From Candidatus Bathyarchaeota archaeon (lineage in GTDB: Archaea > Thermoproteota > Bathyarchaeia > Bathyarchaeales > Bathycorpusculaceae), in NCBI GenBank assembly GCA_026014685.1, contig JAOZHW010000001.1, positions 1 through 64,000 on the forward strand: a stretch of 64,000 nt of DNA, given 5' to 3'. A program made the translations under genes and the position numbers. Positions 53,259 through 62,534 of the stretch are shown piece after piece (position 1 is the stretch's first letter; the number at the start of each line of letters is the position of its first letter). Below the pieces are notes generated by a model, which was not told the origin of the DNA, ran no database searches, and was given only the letters and a program-made list of their open reading frames with translations.

Positions 53259-53612
53259 ATGCGAATTGTTACAGTTATCGGCGGCATCGTGGTTGTGGTT
53301 TGTTTCTTTTTTGCAGTCATCTTTGCACTTGCGGCTTCTGTTCAAGCAACGACCTCGCGGCTTGTAACCAGCGGTGTGCTCTTCGCCATCGGATTGGCAA
53401 CCATCGCAGCAGTATACTACCTCACCCGCAAACCCAAAACCGTCATCCAGCGGGTTGAGCTTTCGGGAGAAATGAAAGCAGCTCAAATCAAATGCCCAAA
53501 CTGTGGAGCATCCATTAACGCTGATCAAATCAAAATCGTCTCAGGCGTACCATACGTGAAGTGTCCCTACTGCGGCACGACTTTTGAGGTGGCTGAGGAA
53601 CCAAAATGGTGA
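53259..53612 (+). CDS. two-helix membrane protein with zinc ribbon
   Basis: The product has 117 residues: membrane helices at about 4-26 and 31-51, then a cytoplasmic segment and a zinc ribbon (IKCPNCGASI ... VKCPYCGTTF). The ATG is about 30 bases after a TATA-like GGTTTAAATC. It overlaps the next gene by 7 bp (ATGGTGA) and is the first gene of the radical SAM operon. The ribbon may recruit the next membrane protein or nucleic acid. Family not recognised. Confidence 0.75.
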   Translation: MRIVTVIGGIVVVVCFFFAVIFALAASVQATTSRLVTSGVLFAIGLATIAAVYYLTRKPKTVIQRVELSGEMKAAQIKCPNCGASINADQIKIVSGVPYVKCPYCGTTFEVAEEPKW

Positions 53613-55237
53613 CCCGCGCTGGCTTCTTTGTTGCGTTTTTGGCTGTTTGTTTGGTTTCGTCAACTGCTGGTTTAGCTCAAGCACAAAGCAACCTCTACAC
53701 TGTGAATCATGAATGGGTGCAGATATTCATCAACGACGACGGCACCATAGATTTAACCTACAACATGAGTATAACCGTGACTCAAGGCAGGCTAACCGCG
53801 TTTGATGTGGGGCAACCTAACCGTGACTTCACCATCGGCCAAGCCACTGATCAATACGGAAATCAGCTTCGCACTTATAGTTATACCCCTGACGTGGCCT
53901 CAGTTGATTTTAAGCAGCAAATAAACGCAGGAGAAAGCATCTGGTATACCATCACCACCAATGTGGCAGGCATGATATACAATGACACCACAAATCCCGG
54001 CAACTATGGCATGCAATTCCTTCCGCAGTGGATAAGCGACACCCCGATTAGTGATGTGCGTATCCAAATCGTATTGCCCCCAGGTGTATCCACTGCTGAC
54101 GTGAAAACTACCGAGGTCTTCTACAACGGCACCTCTATGGTTGAAGGAAGGTTGGCGGTTTACTGGGAAAAGCCCTCTCTGGTGGCGAATGAGCGGTTTA
54201 TGATCGGTGTTTCTTTCCCAGCAGCAGCCCTACCTAACTATACGCCAAGCAGCCAAGGCGGAAGCGGCGACGGCTTTGATTTGGATTCTTTGTTTTTGGT
54301 GCTGGGCGTTATTGGTTTCTTTGCCGCTATCTTGATTTTTATATTCATCATCTACAAACTAAGCAAAAGCAGCTATCAATCCCCAAAAGTCAGCATGGAA
54401 ACCTTGGGCGTAAAGCGGGGTTTAACCGCGGTCGAAGCCGCTTACCTCTTAGGCCTCAAGCCTCCCCAGTTGGTCACAGCCATACTCTATAGCCTCTTAC
54501 AGAAGCGGGCAGTGTGGGCAGAAGAAACCAAACCCTCACTTAAACTCAAAGTGTTGCCGCCCTACGAGAACAAGACAGGAACCAAAGAGAGCCCGTTACG
54601 TTACTACGAAATCGACTTCCTCCAAGCCCTCAAAGCCGATGGTTCATTGGATGAGGAGAAACTGGCAAAGGCGATTATGTTTCTGCGGGATACGGTGGAA
54701 AAGAAGCTAGAGGGTTATAGCCGAAAAGACACTGTGGATTATTACCGTAAAATCGTGGATAAGGCGTGGGCGCAGGTGGAGCAGGCAGGCACCCCCGAGT
54801 TAGCATCCAACGCCTACGACAAGGAACTACTTTGGTTGATGATGGACCCAAACCAACGCGTACGCACCGAAACCGTGTTCCGCGACCGTCCCTTCCAGCC
54901 TAATCCGTTGTGGTTCTGGTGGTGGTACGGCTACACAATCTATCATCCTCACCCTGTGTTTCACCCCAACATTAACGCACCCGCACAGTCACCGACGCCA
55001 ACCCCGATTCCCGGCGCAGAATTCGCAAACAACATCGCCACTTCACTTGAGAAAACATCCAGCAACATAGTCGTCAGCTTAGAAAAGTTCGCCAACGCCA
55101 TCGTGCCGCCTCCGCCCAAAGCCAGCCATGCCCCCGCCCATAAAGGAAGCGATTGCGTTTGCGCTTGTGCAGCGTGTGCTTGTGCCTGCGCCTGTGTCAG
55201 TTGTGCTTGCGCTTGTGCAGGTGGAGGTGGCCGCTAA
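53606..55237 (+). CDS. DUF2207-like membrane protein with (Cys-Ala)-rich C-terminal tail
   Basis: The product has 543 residues. A signal peptide (1-26) and an extracellular beta domain (about 28-210) precede a membrane helix (about 228-250). The cytoplasmic part (about 255-470) starts with GLTAVEAAYLLGLKPPQLV, a winged-helix-like fold seen in DUF2207 proteins, and a Trp/His/Pro-rich stretch follows. The last 28 residues start with D516 and hold ten cysteines between 517 and 537, mostly as Cys-Ala pairs, followed by GGGGR. Ala and Cys codons are mixed, so the tail is kept by selection on protein sequence. The gene overlaps the radical SAM gene by one base (TAATG), which suggests that the tail is its substrate. 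Confidence 0.85.
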   Translation: MVTRAGFFVAFLAVCLVSSTAGLAQAQSNLYTVNHEWVQIFINDDGTIDLTYNMSITVTQGRLTAFDVGQPNRDFTIGQATDQYGNQLRTYSYTPDVASVDFKQQINAGESIWYTITTNVAGMIYNDTTNPGNYGMQFLPQWISDTPISDVRIQIVLPPGVSTADVKTTEVFYNGTSMVEGRLAVYWEKPSLVANERFMIGVSFPAAALPNYTPSSQGGSGDGFDLDSLFLVLGVIGFFAAILIFIFIIYKLSKSSYQSPKVSMETLGVKRGLTAVEAAYLLGLKPPQLVTAILYSLLQKRAVWAEETKPSLKLKVLPPYENKTGTKESPLRYYEIDFLQALKADGSLDEEKLAKAIMFLRDTVEKKLEGYSRKDTVDYYRKIVDKAWAQVEQAGTPELASNAYDKELLWLMMDPNQRVRTETVFRDRPFQPNPLWFWWWYGYTIYHPHPVFHPNINAPAQSPTPTPIPGAEFANNIATSLEKTSSNIVVSLEKFANAIVPPPPKASHAPAHKGSDCVCACAACACACACVSCACACAGGGGR

Positions 55238-56565
55238 TGAGGTTGTTTGGAAAACCCAAAATACCAACGGGACGCTTTAGCTACCGTGGGGAAGATGAGT
55301 ATGCGGGTATGTCGCTTCAGCTTCGAATTGAAGAGGGCGGTAGAGGTGTATTGGTCATCAACGCCAACACTGTTTTACACCTCAACGAGTCTGCGTCCGT
55401 GTTTGCATATTACTTCATGCAGGGCTTACCCCAAAAAGAGGTTCTCTCAAAAATCCGCGGCATGTACCGCGTGGACGAAGCCAAAGCTAAAGCTGACTAC
55501 GAAAAACTCGTCTACACCATAAGCACCTTGGTGCAGACAGAAAAAATCGACCCCATAACGTTCCTCGAAATCGAAAAAGAGGAACCGTTCAGCTACAAGT
55601 ATTCGGCGCCGCTGCGTATGGATGTGGCTTTGACTTTCCGATGCCAAAACGACTGTATCCACTGCTACGCAGGCGGCCCCCACCAAACCCCCGAACTTAC
55701 CACTACCCAATGGAAAACTGCCATCGACAAACTCAGCGACGTCGGCGTCTTCATCTTGACGTTCACGGGCGGCGAACCCACACTGCGCGACGACTTGCCT
55801 GAACTTTTGCAGTACGCCCAGAACAAAGGCATCGTTACGGGTTTGATTACTAATGGACGACGCCTCAAAGACAAAGAATACGTGGCGGAGCTGGAGCGGT
55901 CGGGTTTAGATTTTGCCCAGATAACGCTGGAATCGCATAAACCCAAAGTGCATGACGCCATGACAAGCGCAGAGGGCAGCTGGAAAGAAACCGTGGCAGG
56001 CATCAAAAACGCTGTCAACTCACAGATTTACGTCTCCACCAACACGACACTGAGCAAGCACAACGCGGGCGACTTCTTAACCACCGTTGACTACATCAAA
56101 GAACTGGGAGTGGACGCTTTCGGATGTAACAGCCTCATATACAGCGGCAAGGCTCCCGACGTTGACGAATTTGCCCTGACCACTGATGAGCTTAAGGCGT
56201 TGCTGCCGCAGGTTCGCGAGAAAGCCCAACTTTTAGGCTTAAAGTTCCTCTGGTACACCCCAACACAGTACTGCGAATTAGACCCTGTTCAACTTGGATT
56301 AGGAATTAAAAGTTGCACCGCTGCACTCATCAACGCCTGTGTGGGACCAAACGGCGACGTGTATCCCTGCCAAAGCTACTTCGAAAACCTCGGAAACATC
56401 CTTACTGAACCCTGGGAAAAAATCTGGCACAACCCCTTAGCAGAGAAACTGCGCAACCGCGAGTACGTCGAAGACAAATGCAGAAACTGCCGCGAACTGC
56501 AGGTATGTGGCGGTGGATGCCCACTGGAACTTCAAAACAAAAGCCCTGGCTGTGCAACCGCGTAA
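55237..56565 (+). CDS. radical SAM/SPASM peptide-modifying enzyme with PqqD-like N-terminus
   Basis: The product has 442 residues. Residues 20-100 (MSLQLRIEEG ... HLNESASVFAYYFMQG) resemble PqqD, the RiPP recognition element that binds precursor peptides. The radical SAM cluster is C136-x3-C140-x2-C143 (CQNDCIHC), followed by the GGEP motif (FTGGEPTLR). The C-terminal SPASM part has further cysteines (CVGPNGDVYPC, CRNCRELQVCGGGC) for one or two auxiliary 4Fe-4S clusters. Members of this class form thioether or carbon crosslinks in Cys-rich peptides. The start is set by the TAATG overlap with the tail-bearing gene; the open frame extends upstream but only antisense to that tail. Confidence 0.92.
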   Translation: MRLFGKPKIPTGRFSYRGEDEYAGMSLQLRIEEGGRGVLVINANTVLHLNESASVFAYYFMQGLPQKEVLSKIRGMYRVDEAKAKADYEKLVYTISTLVQTEKIDPITFLEIEKEEPFSYKYSAPLRMDVALTFRCQNDCIHCYAGGPHQTPELTTTQWKTAIDKLSDVGVFILTFTGGEPTLRDDLPELLQYAQNKGIVTGLITNGRRLKDKEYVAELERSGLDFAQITLESHKPKVHDAMTSAEGSWKETVAGIKNAVNSQIYVSTNTTLSKHNAGDFLTTVDYIKELGVDAFGCNSLIYSGKAPDVDEFALTTDELKALLPQVREKAQLLGLKFLWYTPTQYCELDPVQLGLGIKSCTAALINACVGPNGDVYPCQSYFENLGNILTEPWEKIWHNPLAEKLRNREYVEDKCRNCRELQVCGGGCPLELQNKSPGCATA

Positions 56566-59111: not shown

Positions 59112-60041
59112 ATGGCAACCAACAAAAACGCATTAAAAACCTTAACCTTCTGCTTACTAATCTCAGCCTTGTTAAGCCCAATTCTACTGTCCACCACACG
59201 GGCAGAAAGCACCACGACAGTGGGGGAATGGAAACTTGACGAAACAAAAATCAGCGGCACAACCGAAACCACCCCCGACGCCACAGGCGTCAACAACGGC
59301 ATACTGGCAGGCACAGAGCACCCAACCCTTGTCAAAGGCAAATACGGCAACGCCATGAAATTCGGCGGAGAAAACGCCATCTACGTCCCAATCAAATTTG
59401 TTGTCGGCTTCCCACCTATGGATGAACCCATGTACATCCCGATTTCCACCAACCTCGACATCCAAAAATACTTCACCATAACGGCATGGATTAACGTGCC
59501 AAGCTTTACAAACGCCACATACAACAACATCGTTGTGAAATGTAACCACCCAGACCAAGCTTGCGATTGGCAAAATACACAGAGAGTTCTCGGCTTAGCC
59601 GTACGTGCAGGAACACTTGGAAACGGCGAGGCATACGTTGAGGGGGCACTTAGCGGCTTTGTTATGACGGAGAGCGGCGGCTTTAACGAAATAGTAACAA
59701 CTCAAGCGATTCCGCTTAACACTTGGATAGAGGTACAGTTCACCCGCACAGCCACAGGTATGCACCTCTACATTAACAACGAAGAACAAGCCGTCCAAGT
59801 CCTGCATGGCACCCAGAATCCAACAGGCAAAATCCTAAGCGGCACAGAATACTACTTCGGCCACGACAGCTACGCAACCATCGACAACGTAAAACTCACG
59901 GACTTAGACCCTTACAGCGAGAGCAGCTTTGACATCGGACCCAACTTGATGATAGTCATAATCGCCGTTGCAGTCATATTCGCAGTTGCTTGGCTCCTTC
60001 GCCGAGCTATCCAACTCTGGATAATTAAACCAAAAATCTAG
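59112..60041 (+). CDS. LamG/concanavalin-like secreted membrane-anchored protein
   Basis: The product has 309 residues: a signal peptide (1-30), a LamG-like beta-sandwich (about 35-265) with WKLDET, FGGENAIYVP, FTITAWINVPSF and LHLYINNEEQ-like strands, then a C-terminal membrane helix (about 280-300) and a short basic cytoplasmic end. LamG domains bind glycans or proteins. A radical SAM gene begins 10 bp downstream, so both belong to one transcript. Upstream a hairpin TGTTCC/GGAACA (59028-59045) and TATA-like CTATAAG precede the start. Confidence 0.85.
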   Translation: MATNKNALKTLTFCLLISALLSPILLSTTRAESTTTVGEWKLDETKISGTTETTPDATGVNNGILAGTEHPTLVKGKYGNAMKFGGENAIYVPIKFVVGFPPMDEPMYIPISTNLDIQKYFTITAWINVPSFTNATYNNIVVKCNHPDQACDWQNTQRVLGLAVRAGTLGNGEAYVEGALSGFVMTESGGFNEIVTTQAIPLNTWIEVQFTRTATGMHLYINNEEQAVQVLHGTQNPTGKILSGTEYYFGHDSYATIDNVKLTDLDPYSESSFDIGPNLMIVIIAVAVIFAVAWLLRRAIQLWIIKPKI

Positions 60042-60051
60042 GCGACTAAAC

Positions 60052-61224
60052 GTGGGCACAACCCTAAAACTGCTCGAGTTGCTACTTCGGCAGAAGCTGC
60101 TAGGGCAGGGACTAAAGGGTGAACCCCACACCCCTCTCATTGTTTCTTTCGCTGTAACCCGCGCCTGCAACCTACGTTGCCTCCACTGTCATGTATCCGC
60201 CAGAGAAGCCATGCCCAACGAACTTAACCTCCAAGAGGCAACTGCAGCGATTGATGAAATGCACAGTTTAGGCACGGAAGCAGTGATTTTCAGCGGCGGC
60301 GAGCCGTTGCTGCGTAAAGATTTTGTTTTGGCTTTGGCGCAGCACTGCGACGACTTAGGGATCATCACAGCTATGCTTACCAACGGGTTACTTATGACGC
60401 CGCATACTGCGCTACAGCTTCAGGAGGCAGGCATTAAAGCGGTTGGCATACCCATCGACTCAGTCATCCCAGAATGCCACGACCGCTTAAGAAACCTGCC
60501 CGGCACCTTCGAAAAAGCGGTGCAAGCCATCAAAACCTGCCTAGAAATCGACTTAGAAGTCGTGGTGACCACGATGGCGCTCAAAGACACCTACAGTGAG
60601 ATGCCTCAGCGGCTGGAGTTTCTTTCGGATCTAGGGGTGGATGAGGTGGCGGTTTACGATTTGATTCCCGTGGGCAGAGGCAAAGAGGTTATGGATAACG
60701 CTATGACTCAAGAGCAACGCGTTAACCTTATCCGATGGCTCCAAAGCAAACAAGAGAACACGGAGATGGTTTTTGCGATGTCAGGCGGGTTACCCATGTA
60801 CCCTGAAATCGCCATAGAAATGCACCGCAGCCACGGCACCAAAGCCAAAGACCTCCTCGTCAAAGAATTCTGGATACATCAAGGCATCGGCTGCCACGCA
60901 GGCAACATGTACTTCAGCTTACGCCCCAACGGCGACATCTACCCCTGCACCTTTCTCCCCATAAAAGTCGGCAACATCCGCGAACAGAGCCTAACTGAAA
61001 TCTGGCGCAACTCCTCGGTTCTAAAAACGCTGCGGCAGCGTCAAACGCTCAAAGGCAAATGTGGCACCTGCGAGTACCGAGAGGGCTGCGGCGGGTGCAG
61101 AGGACGAGCTTATGCGTGCACGGGAGACTACTTGGAAACTGACCCCGTATGCCTGCGGGATTTGATGGTTGAGGAAAAGGTTTCGCCTGCAGACATCAAA
61201 CGTTTCGGCTGGTGCGTCGGGTAA
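60052..61224 (+). CDS. radical SAM/SPASM enzyme
   Basis: The product has 390 residues and starts with GTG. The radical SAM motif is C39-x3-C43-x2-C46 (CNLRCLHC), followed by FSGGEPLLR. The C-terminal SPASM part has CHAGN ... PNGDIYPC and CGTCEYREGCGGC, with enough cysteines for two auxiliary clusters. Overall it resembles the NirJ/AhbC/AhbD/PqqE group, in which some members act in haem synthesis and others on peptides. No haem genes lie nearby. It is coupled to the LamG-like gene, so a substrate there is possible. Confidence 0.88.
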   Translation: MGTTLKLLELLLRQKLLGQGLKGEPHTPLIVSFAVTRACNLRCLHCHVSAREAMPNELNLQEATAAIDEMHSLGTEAVIFSGGEPLLRKDFVLALAQHCDDLGIITAMLTNGLLMTPHTALQLQEAGIKAVGIPIDSVIPECHDRLRNLPGTFEKAVQAIKTCLEIDLEVVVTTMALKDTYSEMPQRLEFLSDLGVDEVAVYDLIPVGRGKEVMDNAMTQEQRVNLIRWLQSKQENTEMVFAMSGGLPMYPEIAIEMHRSHGTKAKDLLVKEFWIHQGIGCHAGNMYFSLRPNGDIYPCTFLPIKVGNIREQSLTEIWRNSSVLKTLRQRQTLKGKCGTCEYREGCGGCRGRAYACTGDYLETDPVCLRDLMVEEKVSPADIKRFGWCVG

Positions 61225-61298: not shown

Positions 61299-62534
61299 AT
61301 GCCAACTCAGAAACCCCAGCCAGACGTGGTGGTCGTTGGAGGCGGACCCGTAGGCGCCTATGCAGCCCTCCATTTAGCCAAGAAAGGTTTAGCAGTCAGG
61401 GTTTTTGAGGAGCACCCCCAAATCGGTTTGCCCTCTCATTGCGCGGGGCATATAAGCATCCGAAGCCTCAAGCACATGGGGCTCTATCCTTTGCCCAGCG
61501 GCATTATCGAAAATGAGTTTTCTGCTGCCAACTTTTATTCACCTCAAGGCACCAAATTCACGCTCAAACTCTCTTGCCCCGTAACCACTGCACTGAATAG
61601 GGCACGGTTCGACCAGTTCTTGGCTGAGCAGGCGAAGGCGGCTGGAGCCGAATTTGCGTTGGACTCACGGGTCGAATCGTTATTGATACAGAAAGGTGCC
61701 GTGCAAGGCGTGCACTTAAAAACTGGTGAAAACCTCCCAATTCAAGTACGCTCAAAAATTGTTGTGGACGCTGAAGGTGTCTCTTCGCGGCTTCTCCGAC
61801 AAACAAGATTACCGACCCTAAACCCAACTGGACTAGTTTACGCAGTAGAAGCAGAAATGGAAGATGCGCAAGATGTCGATTTGAACGCTGTGGAGGTGTA
61901 TTTCGGCAAAGGCTATGCACCGGGCTTCTACGCCTGGGTTATACCGCGACCTGACGGCTCCGCCAAAGTCGGCTTAGCCACAAACCACGGCGACCCACGC
62001 GAACACCTCAAGCGACTCATGACAAAACACCCTGTGGCTTCAAAACAACTAGGGAAAGCCAAAATCACCTCTGTGGGCTACCACGCCATAACCCTCGCAG
62101 GACCAATCCCACAGGCTTACACAGATGGCTTCTTGGCTGTTGGGGACTGCGCCTCGCAAGTGAAGCCCACCACGGGGGGCGGGGTAATATTCGGGTTAAC
62201 CGCAGCTAAGGAAGCCGCTGAGGTGGCGAGCCAAGCTATAGCACAAGGGGACGTTTCCGCTAATGTTCTTCAGGTATATCAGAAACGCTGCGATGAACTC
62301 TTCAACTTTGACATTCGCGTTATGCTTCGGCTGAGACGTTTTTTGGATTCACTTTCTGATGAGCGGTTAGATGAGATGTTGAGGGTTTGCCGTAAACTGG
62401 GTGTTGATGGGGCATTGAGTGATGTTACAGAAATCGATTTTCAAGGCAAAATGCTGCTTACAGTAGCCACAAAACCCTCGATGTTGGCGGCGTTAGGCTA
62501 CTTTGGGCTGCTCTATTTGACTGCAAACCCTTAA
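61299..62534 (+). CDS. geranylgeranyl reductase family flavoprotein
   Basis: The product has 411 residues. The FAD-binding loop VVVVGGGPVGAYAALHLAKKG, the PSHCAGHIS segment, the YAWVIPRPDGSAKVG motif and VGDCASQVKPTTGGGVIFGL fit the family that reduces the double bonds of archaeol and other isoprenoid chains. It is likely to saturate the geranylgeranyl groups of membrane lipids. egsA, another lipid gene, is also in the window. The pth2 and truD genes follow on the same strand. Confidence 0.9.
   Translation: MPTQKPQPDVVVVGGGPVGAYAALHLAKKGLAVRVFEEHPQIGLPSHCAGHISIRSLKHMGLYPLPSGIIENEFSAANFYSPQGTKFTLKLSCPVTTALNRARFDQFLAEQAKAAGAEFALDSRVESLLIQKGAVQGVHLKTGENLPIQVRSKIVVDAEGVSSRLLRQTRLPTLNPTGLVYAVEAEMEDAQDVDLNAVEVYFGKGYAPGFYAWVIPRPDGSAKVGLATNHGDPREHLKRLMTKHPVASKQLGKAKITSVGYHAITLAGPIPQAYTDGFLAVGDCASQVKPTTGGGVIFGLTAAKEAAEVASQAIAQGDVSANVLQVYQKRCDELFNFDIRVMLRLRRFLDSLSDERLDEMLRVCRKLGVDGALSDVTEIDFQGKMLLTVATKPSMLAALGYFGLLYLTANP

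Follow-up and report, generated by a model that had tools for sequence, protein, structure and literature searches.

A conserved cysteine-alanine tail on a membrane protein, and a neighbouring radical SAM/SPASM enzyme as its probable partner, in Bathyarchaeota and Chloroflexota

A cysteine tail in a three-gene operon

The first 64,000 nucleotides of contig JAOZHW010000001.1 (assembly GCA_026014685.1, a Candidatus Bathyarchaeota archaeon; this whole stretch is referred to here as the window) contain a short operon in which a membrane protein that ends in a cysteine-rich tail is encoded directly upstream of a radical SAM/SPASM enzyme. The features assigned to the operon from open reading frame (ORF) calls, alignments, structure models and profile searches are as follows, with lengths in amino acids (aa).

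53259-53612, + strand: small zinc-ribbon membrane protein, 117 aa, the first gene of the operon (ORF call and zinc-ribbon matches)
53606-55237, + strand: tail-bearing membrane protein, 543 aa, a putative remote DUF2207 relative (ORF call, alignment, AlphaFold2 model)
55013-55102, + strand: predicted helix of the tail protein, residues 470-499, with a conserved PGxxFA start (model and conserved columns P469, G470, F473, A474 and F495)
55154-55234, + strand: Cys tail, residues 517-543, CVCAC-AA-CACACAC-VS-CACAC-AGGGGR, in runs of 3-4-3 (ORF and base-level check)
55237-56565, + strand: radical SAM/SPASM maturase, 442 aa (PF04055, PF13186, alignment, model, fold neighbours)
55270-55536, + strand: PqqD/RRE-like N-terminal domain of the enzyme, residues 12-100, four strands then three helices (model, Pfam, fold)
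55642-55665, + strand: CxxxCxxC radical SAM motif, C136, C140 and C143 (invariant in 36/36)
56251-56520, + strand: WYTPTQYC and the SPASM cysteines C346, C360, C378, C415, C418, C424 and C428 (invariant columns)

The three genes are tightly packed. The stop codon of the tail gene (TAA, 55235-55237) and the ATG of the enzyme gene at 55237 have one base in common, and the 117-aa gene overlaps the tail gene by 7 bases, which is also the median overlap of these two genes in archaea. The tail protein has the C-terminus CVCACAACACACACVSCACACAGGGGR (the full protein ends ...GSDCVCACAACACACACVSCACACAGGGGR), with ten Cys residues within the 21 positions 517-537 (DNA 55154-55216). A first-pass annotation, made from the DNA letters and the predicted reading frames, had singled out the ten cysteines, the terminal GGGGR and the one-base overlap with the enzyme gene, and all three are present at base level.

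Comparison of 108 distinct tails reveals a simple grammar. The Cys runs are arranged as 3-4-3 in 53 tails, 4-3 in 42, 5-3 in nine, 3-3 in three and 2-4-3 in one, with 3-4-3 being the archaeal pattern and 4-3, 5-3 or 3-3 the bacterial ones. All 653 single spacers between Cys residues are either Ala (595) or Val (58), and the breaks between runs are always two residues long, so that each break forms a CxxC. The break residues are AG or VS ahead of the last run and AA, AS, AN, AT, VS or HA ahead of the middle run; the last run invariably consists of three Cys, followed by A and then mostly by GGG, although SGG and HGG also occur.

No other part of the protein is as strongly conserved as the tail. 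Between archaea and bacteria, residues 521-540 have a mean identity of 0.74 and most of the body one of 0.1-0.4, and the ratio of nonsynonymous to synonymous polymorphism (pN/pS) is 0.017 in archaea and 0.000 in bacteria for the tail core, as compared with 0.41 and 0.53 for the body. In the Cys and Ala columns the residues stay fixed while the codons vary, the two for Cys and the four for Ala all being in use, which agrees with the earlier suggestion, drawn from the mixed codons of the tail, that selection acts on the amino acids. An origin of the tail by chance or as a DNA repeat artefact is ruled out, since the residues are conserved from archaea to bacteria despite free synonymous change.

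Co-occurrence and joint decay of tail and enzyme

Relatives of the enzyme were scanned in one genome per species, and the best 80 of 365 encoding stretches were taken for analysis. They come from Bathyarchaeota, Chloroflexota (mainly Anaerolineae) and a few other bacteria, for example Coatesbacteria, Zymogenaceae and Edwardsbacteria. A similar Cys tail is encoded on a nearby gene in 75 of these 80 loci, almost always immediately upstream of the enzyme; in locus L063 the tail gene lies 2.6 kb away. The five loci without a tail (L042, L044, L051, L062 and L087) were considered as true exceptions to the pairing and rejected as such, since all lie at contig ends or N-gaps; in four of the five a tail gene is found elsewhere in the same genome, and in L087 the ORF of the tail protein reaches the contig end before its tail.

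For the reverse comparison, tails were sought by a DNA pattern independent of the enzyme, in samples of 300 Thermoproteota and 301 Chloroflexota genomes. The pattern matched 16 Thermoproteota genomes, in every case within this protein family and with the enzyme in the same genome, and the enzyme profile (E<=1e-100) found these 16 plus two more, G276 and G248. Genome G276 does have the tail, which the pattern missed owing to a Val at one spacer position, so that the Thermoproteota comprise 17 genomes with both, one with the enzyme only, none with the tail only and 282 with neither (Fisher p = 8e-27, a value that counts genomes as independent though they are not). For the Chloroflexota, a shorter pattern was used on a sample centred on a genome (G300) picked because it has the pair; it matched 21 genomes, 20 with true tails and one (G490) by chance, and the enzyme profile detected exactly the 20 tail genomes. 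Altogether, 37 of the 601 genomes have both, one has the enzyme only and 563 have neither. The first-pass annotation had asked whether tails without the enzyme occur in many genomes, and none was found among the 37 tail genomes. The pair is patchy in its distribution, only 4 of 11 sampled genomes of the window's own genus having both.

Absence is shared as well. Eight close relatives that lack the enzyme had no trace of the tail protein, and in a ninth, G001 (100% complete; locus L196), both genes persist as multiply broken pseudogenes, with the enzyme in fragments in different frames and the tail protein without its N-terminal part and with an internal stop. Such joint decay is expected of a substrate and its enzyme. 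The tail of this pseudogene shows a rare change in its Gly stretch, SGRVG.

Joint presence, joint absence and joint decay of the two genes make it very probable that the tail is the substrate of the neighbouring enzyme, a reading to which we would assign a probability of about 85%. Mere adjacency of two functionally uncoupled genes might be argued from the only enzyme-only case in the 601 genomes, G248 (95% complete), in which no tail protein was detectable; this genome also speaks against a substrate relationship. Uncoupled adjacency is nevertheless highly improbable, since the genes overlap, have become pseudogenes jointly and co-occur across 601 genomes from two domains of life. The enzyme of G248 (L180/L201) is itself a clear family member, with ~51% identity to that of L046. 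Of the first-pass annotation, the coupling and the idea of a full-size membrane protein as the substrate are thus well supported. The methanogen cassettes that it mentioned were not found in searches not directed at methanogens; the relatives retrieved belong to Bathyarchaeota and a few further Thermoproteota, to Chloroflexota and to some candidate phyla of bacteria.

The enzyme, the tail protein and the wider cassette

The window enzyme matches the radical SAM and SPASM families of Pfam (PF04055, E 6.4e-24; PF13186, E 3.5e-11). In an alignment of 36 family members, PF13186 is matched by all 36, and the spacings C360-X12-G-X4-C378 and C415-X2-C418-X5-C424-X3-C428 fit those of SPASM domains, with C346, in WYTPTQYC, as an additional invariant Cys outside the canonical spacing. 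The PqqD-like N-terminus seen in the first-pass annotation is confirmed by the fold and by matches to PF05402 in 29 of the 36 members (best E 7.5e-8), the window enzyme alone giving a weak match (E 0.071). A model of the enzyme (predicted local distance difference test, pLDDT, 85; predicted template modelling score, pTM, 0.87) retrieved SkfB, SuiB and CteB first in a PDB fold search, then PqqE, with EpeE also among the neighbours, and it aligned at full length with SuiB, which likewise bears an RRE. With its CxxxCxxC motif, SPASM Cys set and N-terminal PqqD/RRE domain, the enzyme fits the RRE-containing SPASM radical SAM peptide maturases, and this architecture, together with a fold like that of the maturases SkfB, SuiB and CteB of ribosomally synthesized and post-translationally modified peptides (RiPPs), supports a role in peptide maturation. 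RREs are known to bind the leader sequences of precursor peptides (PMC12710340).

The enzyme is single-copy in kind (the next best match in its own genome has 33% identity over partial length), and no NCBIfam family, the named radical SAM equivalogs for AhbC, mycofactocin and PqqE among them, scored above its cut-off: the best reached 150.7 bits vs 500, and the best 25 of 71 families all lay below. With the top models so far below their cut-offs, the enzyme belongs to no named family. TIGR04347, a pseudo-SAM/SPASM model, is among the best (146.5 vs 525), and rSAM_ACGX and other named systems, which also tie a radical SAM/SPASM enzyme to a peptide target, score far below as well (76 vs 400 for rSAM_ACGX). 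The highest-scoring models are those of the heme pathway (NirJ2 and AhbD), at less than one third of their cut-offs. A heme-pathway identity was rejected, because of these scores and because the RRE points to a peptide substrate.

The heme-pathway ranking weighs to some extent against a peptide maturase, and it also bears on a different explanation of the tail, namely that its unmodified thiolates bind a metal or an iron-sulfur cluster in the manner of metallothionein CxC/CxxC motifs, and that what the enzyme makes or alters is a metal cofactor, which is then loaded onto the tail. The mixture of CxC and CxxC spacings and the zinc-ribbon protein as operon partner would also suit this explanation; on the other hand, the RRE/PqqD domain is a peptide-binding feature and simple metal binding does not need spacers fixed to Ala or Val. 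We consider an unmodified metal-binding tail unlikely.

The body of the tail protein is far less constrained, with only ~30% identity between archaeal and bacterial members. In an AlphaFold2 model built from a 32-sequence alignment (mean pLDDT 79, pTM 0.46), an N-terminal helix (3-22) is followed by an extracytoplasmic beta-sandwich (30-205), one membrane helix (226-253) and a cytosolic part made up of a helical region with a small hairpin, the helix 470-499 (split by DSSP into 470-488 and 492-499) and the disordered tail. A cytosolic C-terminus is also suggested by the basic residues downstream of the membrane helix; the first-pass annotation had likewise placed the tail on the cytosolic side of a single membrane helix. 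In a fold search the beta-sandwich resembled ribophorin I and M1 aminopeptidases in their N-terminal domains, and one family member has a weak Ribophorin_I match (E 0.0038). The window protein has no significant Pfam match, and none to PF09972 (DUF2207) at E<=0.1, nor does the tail itself match Pfam; the proposed link to DUF2207 is remote, 3 of the 32 family members matching this profile weakly (best E 1.6e-5). In Streptococcus mutans a DUF2207 gene has an effect on biofilm formation and on the tolerance of acid and oxidative stress (PMC10457818), from which little can be concluded for a branch as remote as this one. One unusual ORF of 1139 aa (L053:990-4409, genome G306), adjacent to the enzyme gene, combines an N-terminal protein kinase, a P-loop ATPase and a TPR-like region with, at its end, the C-terminal part of the tail protein including the Cys tail. 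It is either a fusion that moved the tail to a new body or an assembly chimera; G306 also has a normal tail protein elsewhere (L184:4562-6244).

The remaining genes of the cassette differ between archaea and bacteria. The small zinc-ribbon protein, with two hydrophobic segments, a C-terminal zinc ribbon (CPNC...CPYC) and the end EEPKW in the window, is encoded ahead of the tail gene in 51 of 81 neighbourhoods (the 80 loci plus the window), and a Coatesbacteria locus (L058:2859-3595) has two tandem copies of it. Archaeal cassettes end with the enzyme gene. Of the 22 bacterial loci whose sequence extends over 3 kb further downstream, 17 encode a class I methyltransferase (Methyltransf_11, E 1.7e-17 in L058) and 14 a second radical SAM paralogue; in L063 the methyltransferase adjoins the tail gene although the enzyme sits elsewhere. 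The 19 second paralogues from Chloroflexota (~380-450 aa) have kept the GGEP motif and lost CxxxCxxC, with 0-4 Cys in total, and both that were tested match PqqD (E 9.3e-7 and 5.6e-4). They resemble TIGR04347, which is also radical SAM-like and named a pseudo-enzyme, but unlike it they retain the PqqD/RRE domain beside an active-looking sister.

We considered a second radical SAM/SPASM gene of the window (60052-61224) as an archaeal counterpart of this pseudo-enzyme and rejected it: it is only ~22-25% identical to the bacterial second enzyme, is AhbD/TIGR04053-like at scores below the cut-offs, and is unrelated to the tail cassette. The gene before it encodes a LamG-domain membrane protein (59112-60041), and the one after it (61299-62534) is geranylgeranyl reductase-like. 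In one Anaerolineae group (L060, L065, L068, L074, L076, L086 and L199) pst/phoU phosphate genes lie upstream of the cassette, which in several of these loci faces convergent SufU, SufS and Rieske-type genes.

Neither the 80 neighbourhoods nor the extended bacterial cassette has a conserved protease or exporter gene. This weighs against the notion that the tail is a precursor from which a free peptide or cofactor is cleaved and released, in the manner of ordinary RiPPs, for which RRE plus SPASM is standard machinery. Gly-rich, GG-like stretches that precede the bacterial tails could be cited in favor of such a release, but archaeal tails have none, and release through a GG stretch is for this reason not supported. 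As the remainder of the tail protein is, moreover, itself conserved and folded, we regard release in any form as quite unlikely.

Modification proposed for the tail

Whatever the exact bond might be, it seems likely that the enzyme modifies the tail covalently and in place. We propose that the RRE would bind a stretch of the cytosolic C-terminal part, for which the modelled helix 470-499 is possibly the docking sequence, and that the radical SAM and SPASM clusters would then introduce several crosslinks by radical chemistry as the enzyme progresses along the Cys-Ala tail. The likeliest bonds would be thioethers from a Cys sulfur to a neighbouring or cross-strand Ala or Val. We favour thioethers for two reasons, namely that the tail offers a succession of thiols and that the enzymes closest in fold form thioethers or other crosslinks, and by this analogy we would give a thioether-type product about even odds. 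A beta-hairpin arrangement is geometrically possible, in which a two-residue turn would set Cys opposite Cys and a three-residue loop would set Cys opposite Ala. Since neither a leader nor a protease is conserved in the cassette, the modified tail would probably be retained at the cytosolic face of the membrane, where it may act as a rigid metal- or electron-handling appendage; that it both stays on the protein and has this function is a conceivable outcome to which we would give slightly less than even odds.

Known systems offer partial parallels. SkfB and CteB make Cys thioethers. They share with SuiB and the present enzyme the RRE plus SPASM architecture and are its closest solved folds, but the identities are only ~17-20% and the substrates of these three enzymes are short precursor peptides, whereas the target here would be the C-terminus of a 543-aa membrane protein. 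Ordinary RiPPs likewise derive from a short dedicated precursor with leader and core and are released with the help of a protease or exporter, in contrast to a Cys-rich sequence at the end of a ~540-aa membrane protein in a cassette with neither conserved. The best precedent, by analogy, for crosslinks in a working protein subunit is the radical SAM enzyme QhpD, encoded beside its substrate QhpC, which forms three Cys-to-Asp/Glu thioethers in a subunit of quinohemoprotein amine dehydrogenase (PMC7876137). There, too, the radical SAM gene adjoins that of its target and the target is not a free peptide product; QhpC, however, is small and periplasmic and has a 28-residue leader that can be removed, whereas the target here would be a strict Cys-Ala tail on a membrane protein whose cassette lacks a protease. 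We found no description of the present cassette in literature searches that covered the tail sequence, the combination of DUF2207 and radical SAM, and RiPPs with radical SAM in Bathyarchaeota, subscription journals being mostly outside the coverage.

The tail could also be a substrate for some other peptide change, such as epimerisation, decarboxylation, C-methylation or beta-carbon chemistry. The strict two-residue periodicity would suit a product with alternating L and D residues, the radical SAM epimerase EpeE is among the structural neighbours, and the invariant extra C346 could donate a hydrogen; the methyltransferase of the bacterial cassettes might be a further hint. Archaeal cassettes have no methyltransferase, however, and the closest folds are crosslinking maturases with RREs, the epimerase matches being lower-ranked and covering less of the model. 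Chemistry other than thioether formation is therefore an alternative that we judge unlikely.

Two further considerations temper the proposal of a crosslinked tail. The Cys pattern by itself would also suit direct metal binding, and the presence of Ala and Val reveals little about which carbon would be the acceptor. Both the crosslink chemistry and the metal centre, which the first-pass annotation had put forward, are matters of inference. More tentatively still, the cassettes might define a class of protein-embedded modified tails common to archaea and bacteria, in which a permanently membrane-anchored Cys-Ala tail would be crosslinked into a beta-meander with two-residue turns and would serve as a metal- or electron-handling cytosolic appendage, perhaps with help in bacteria from the cluster-less sister enzyme and the methyltransferase.

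Most of what is known of peptide maturation by radical SAM enzymes concerns short precursors, which give rise to antibiotics or cofactors. The target of the enzyme described here appears to be a built-in tail of a full-size membrane protein, which is nearly letter for letter the same in Bathyarchaeota and Chloroflexota and whose simple grammar makes the chemistry easy to test. If the proposal is true, resident membrane proteins would join the targets of installed crosslinks, a cassette without a named family would gain a function, and iterative radical chemistry could be studied on a minimal repeating substrate.

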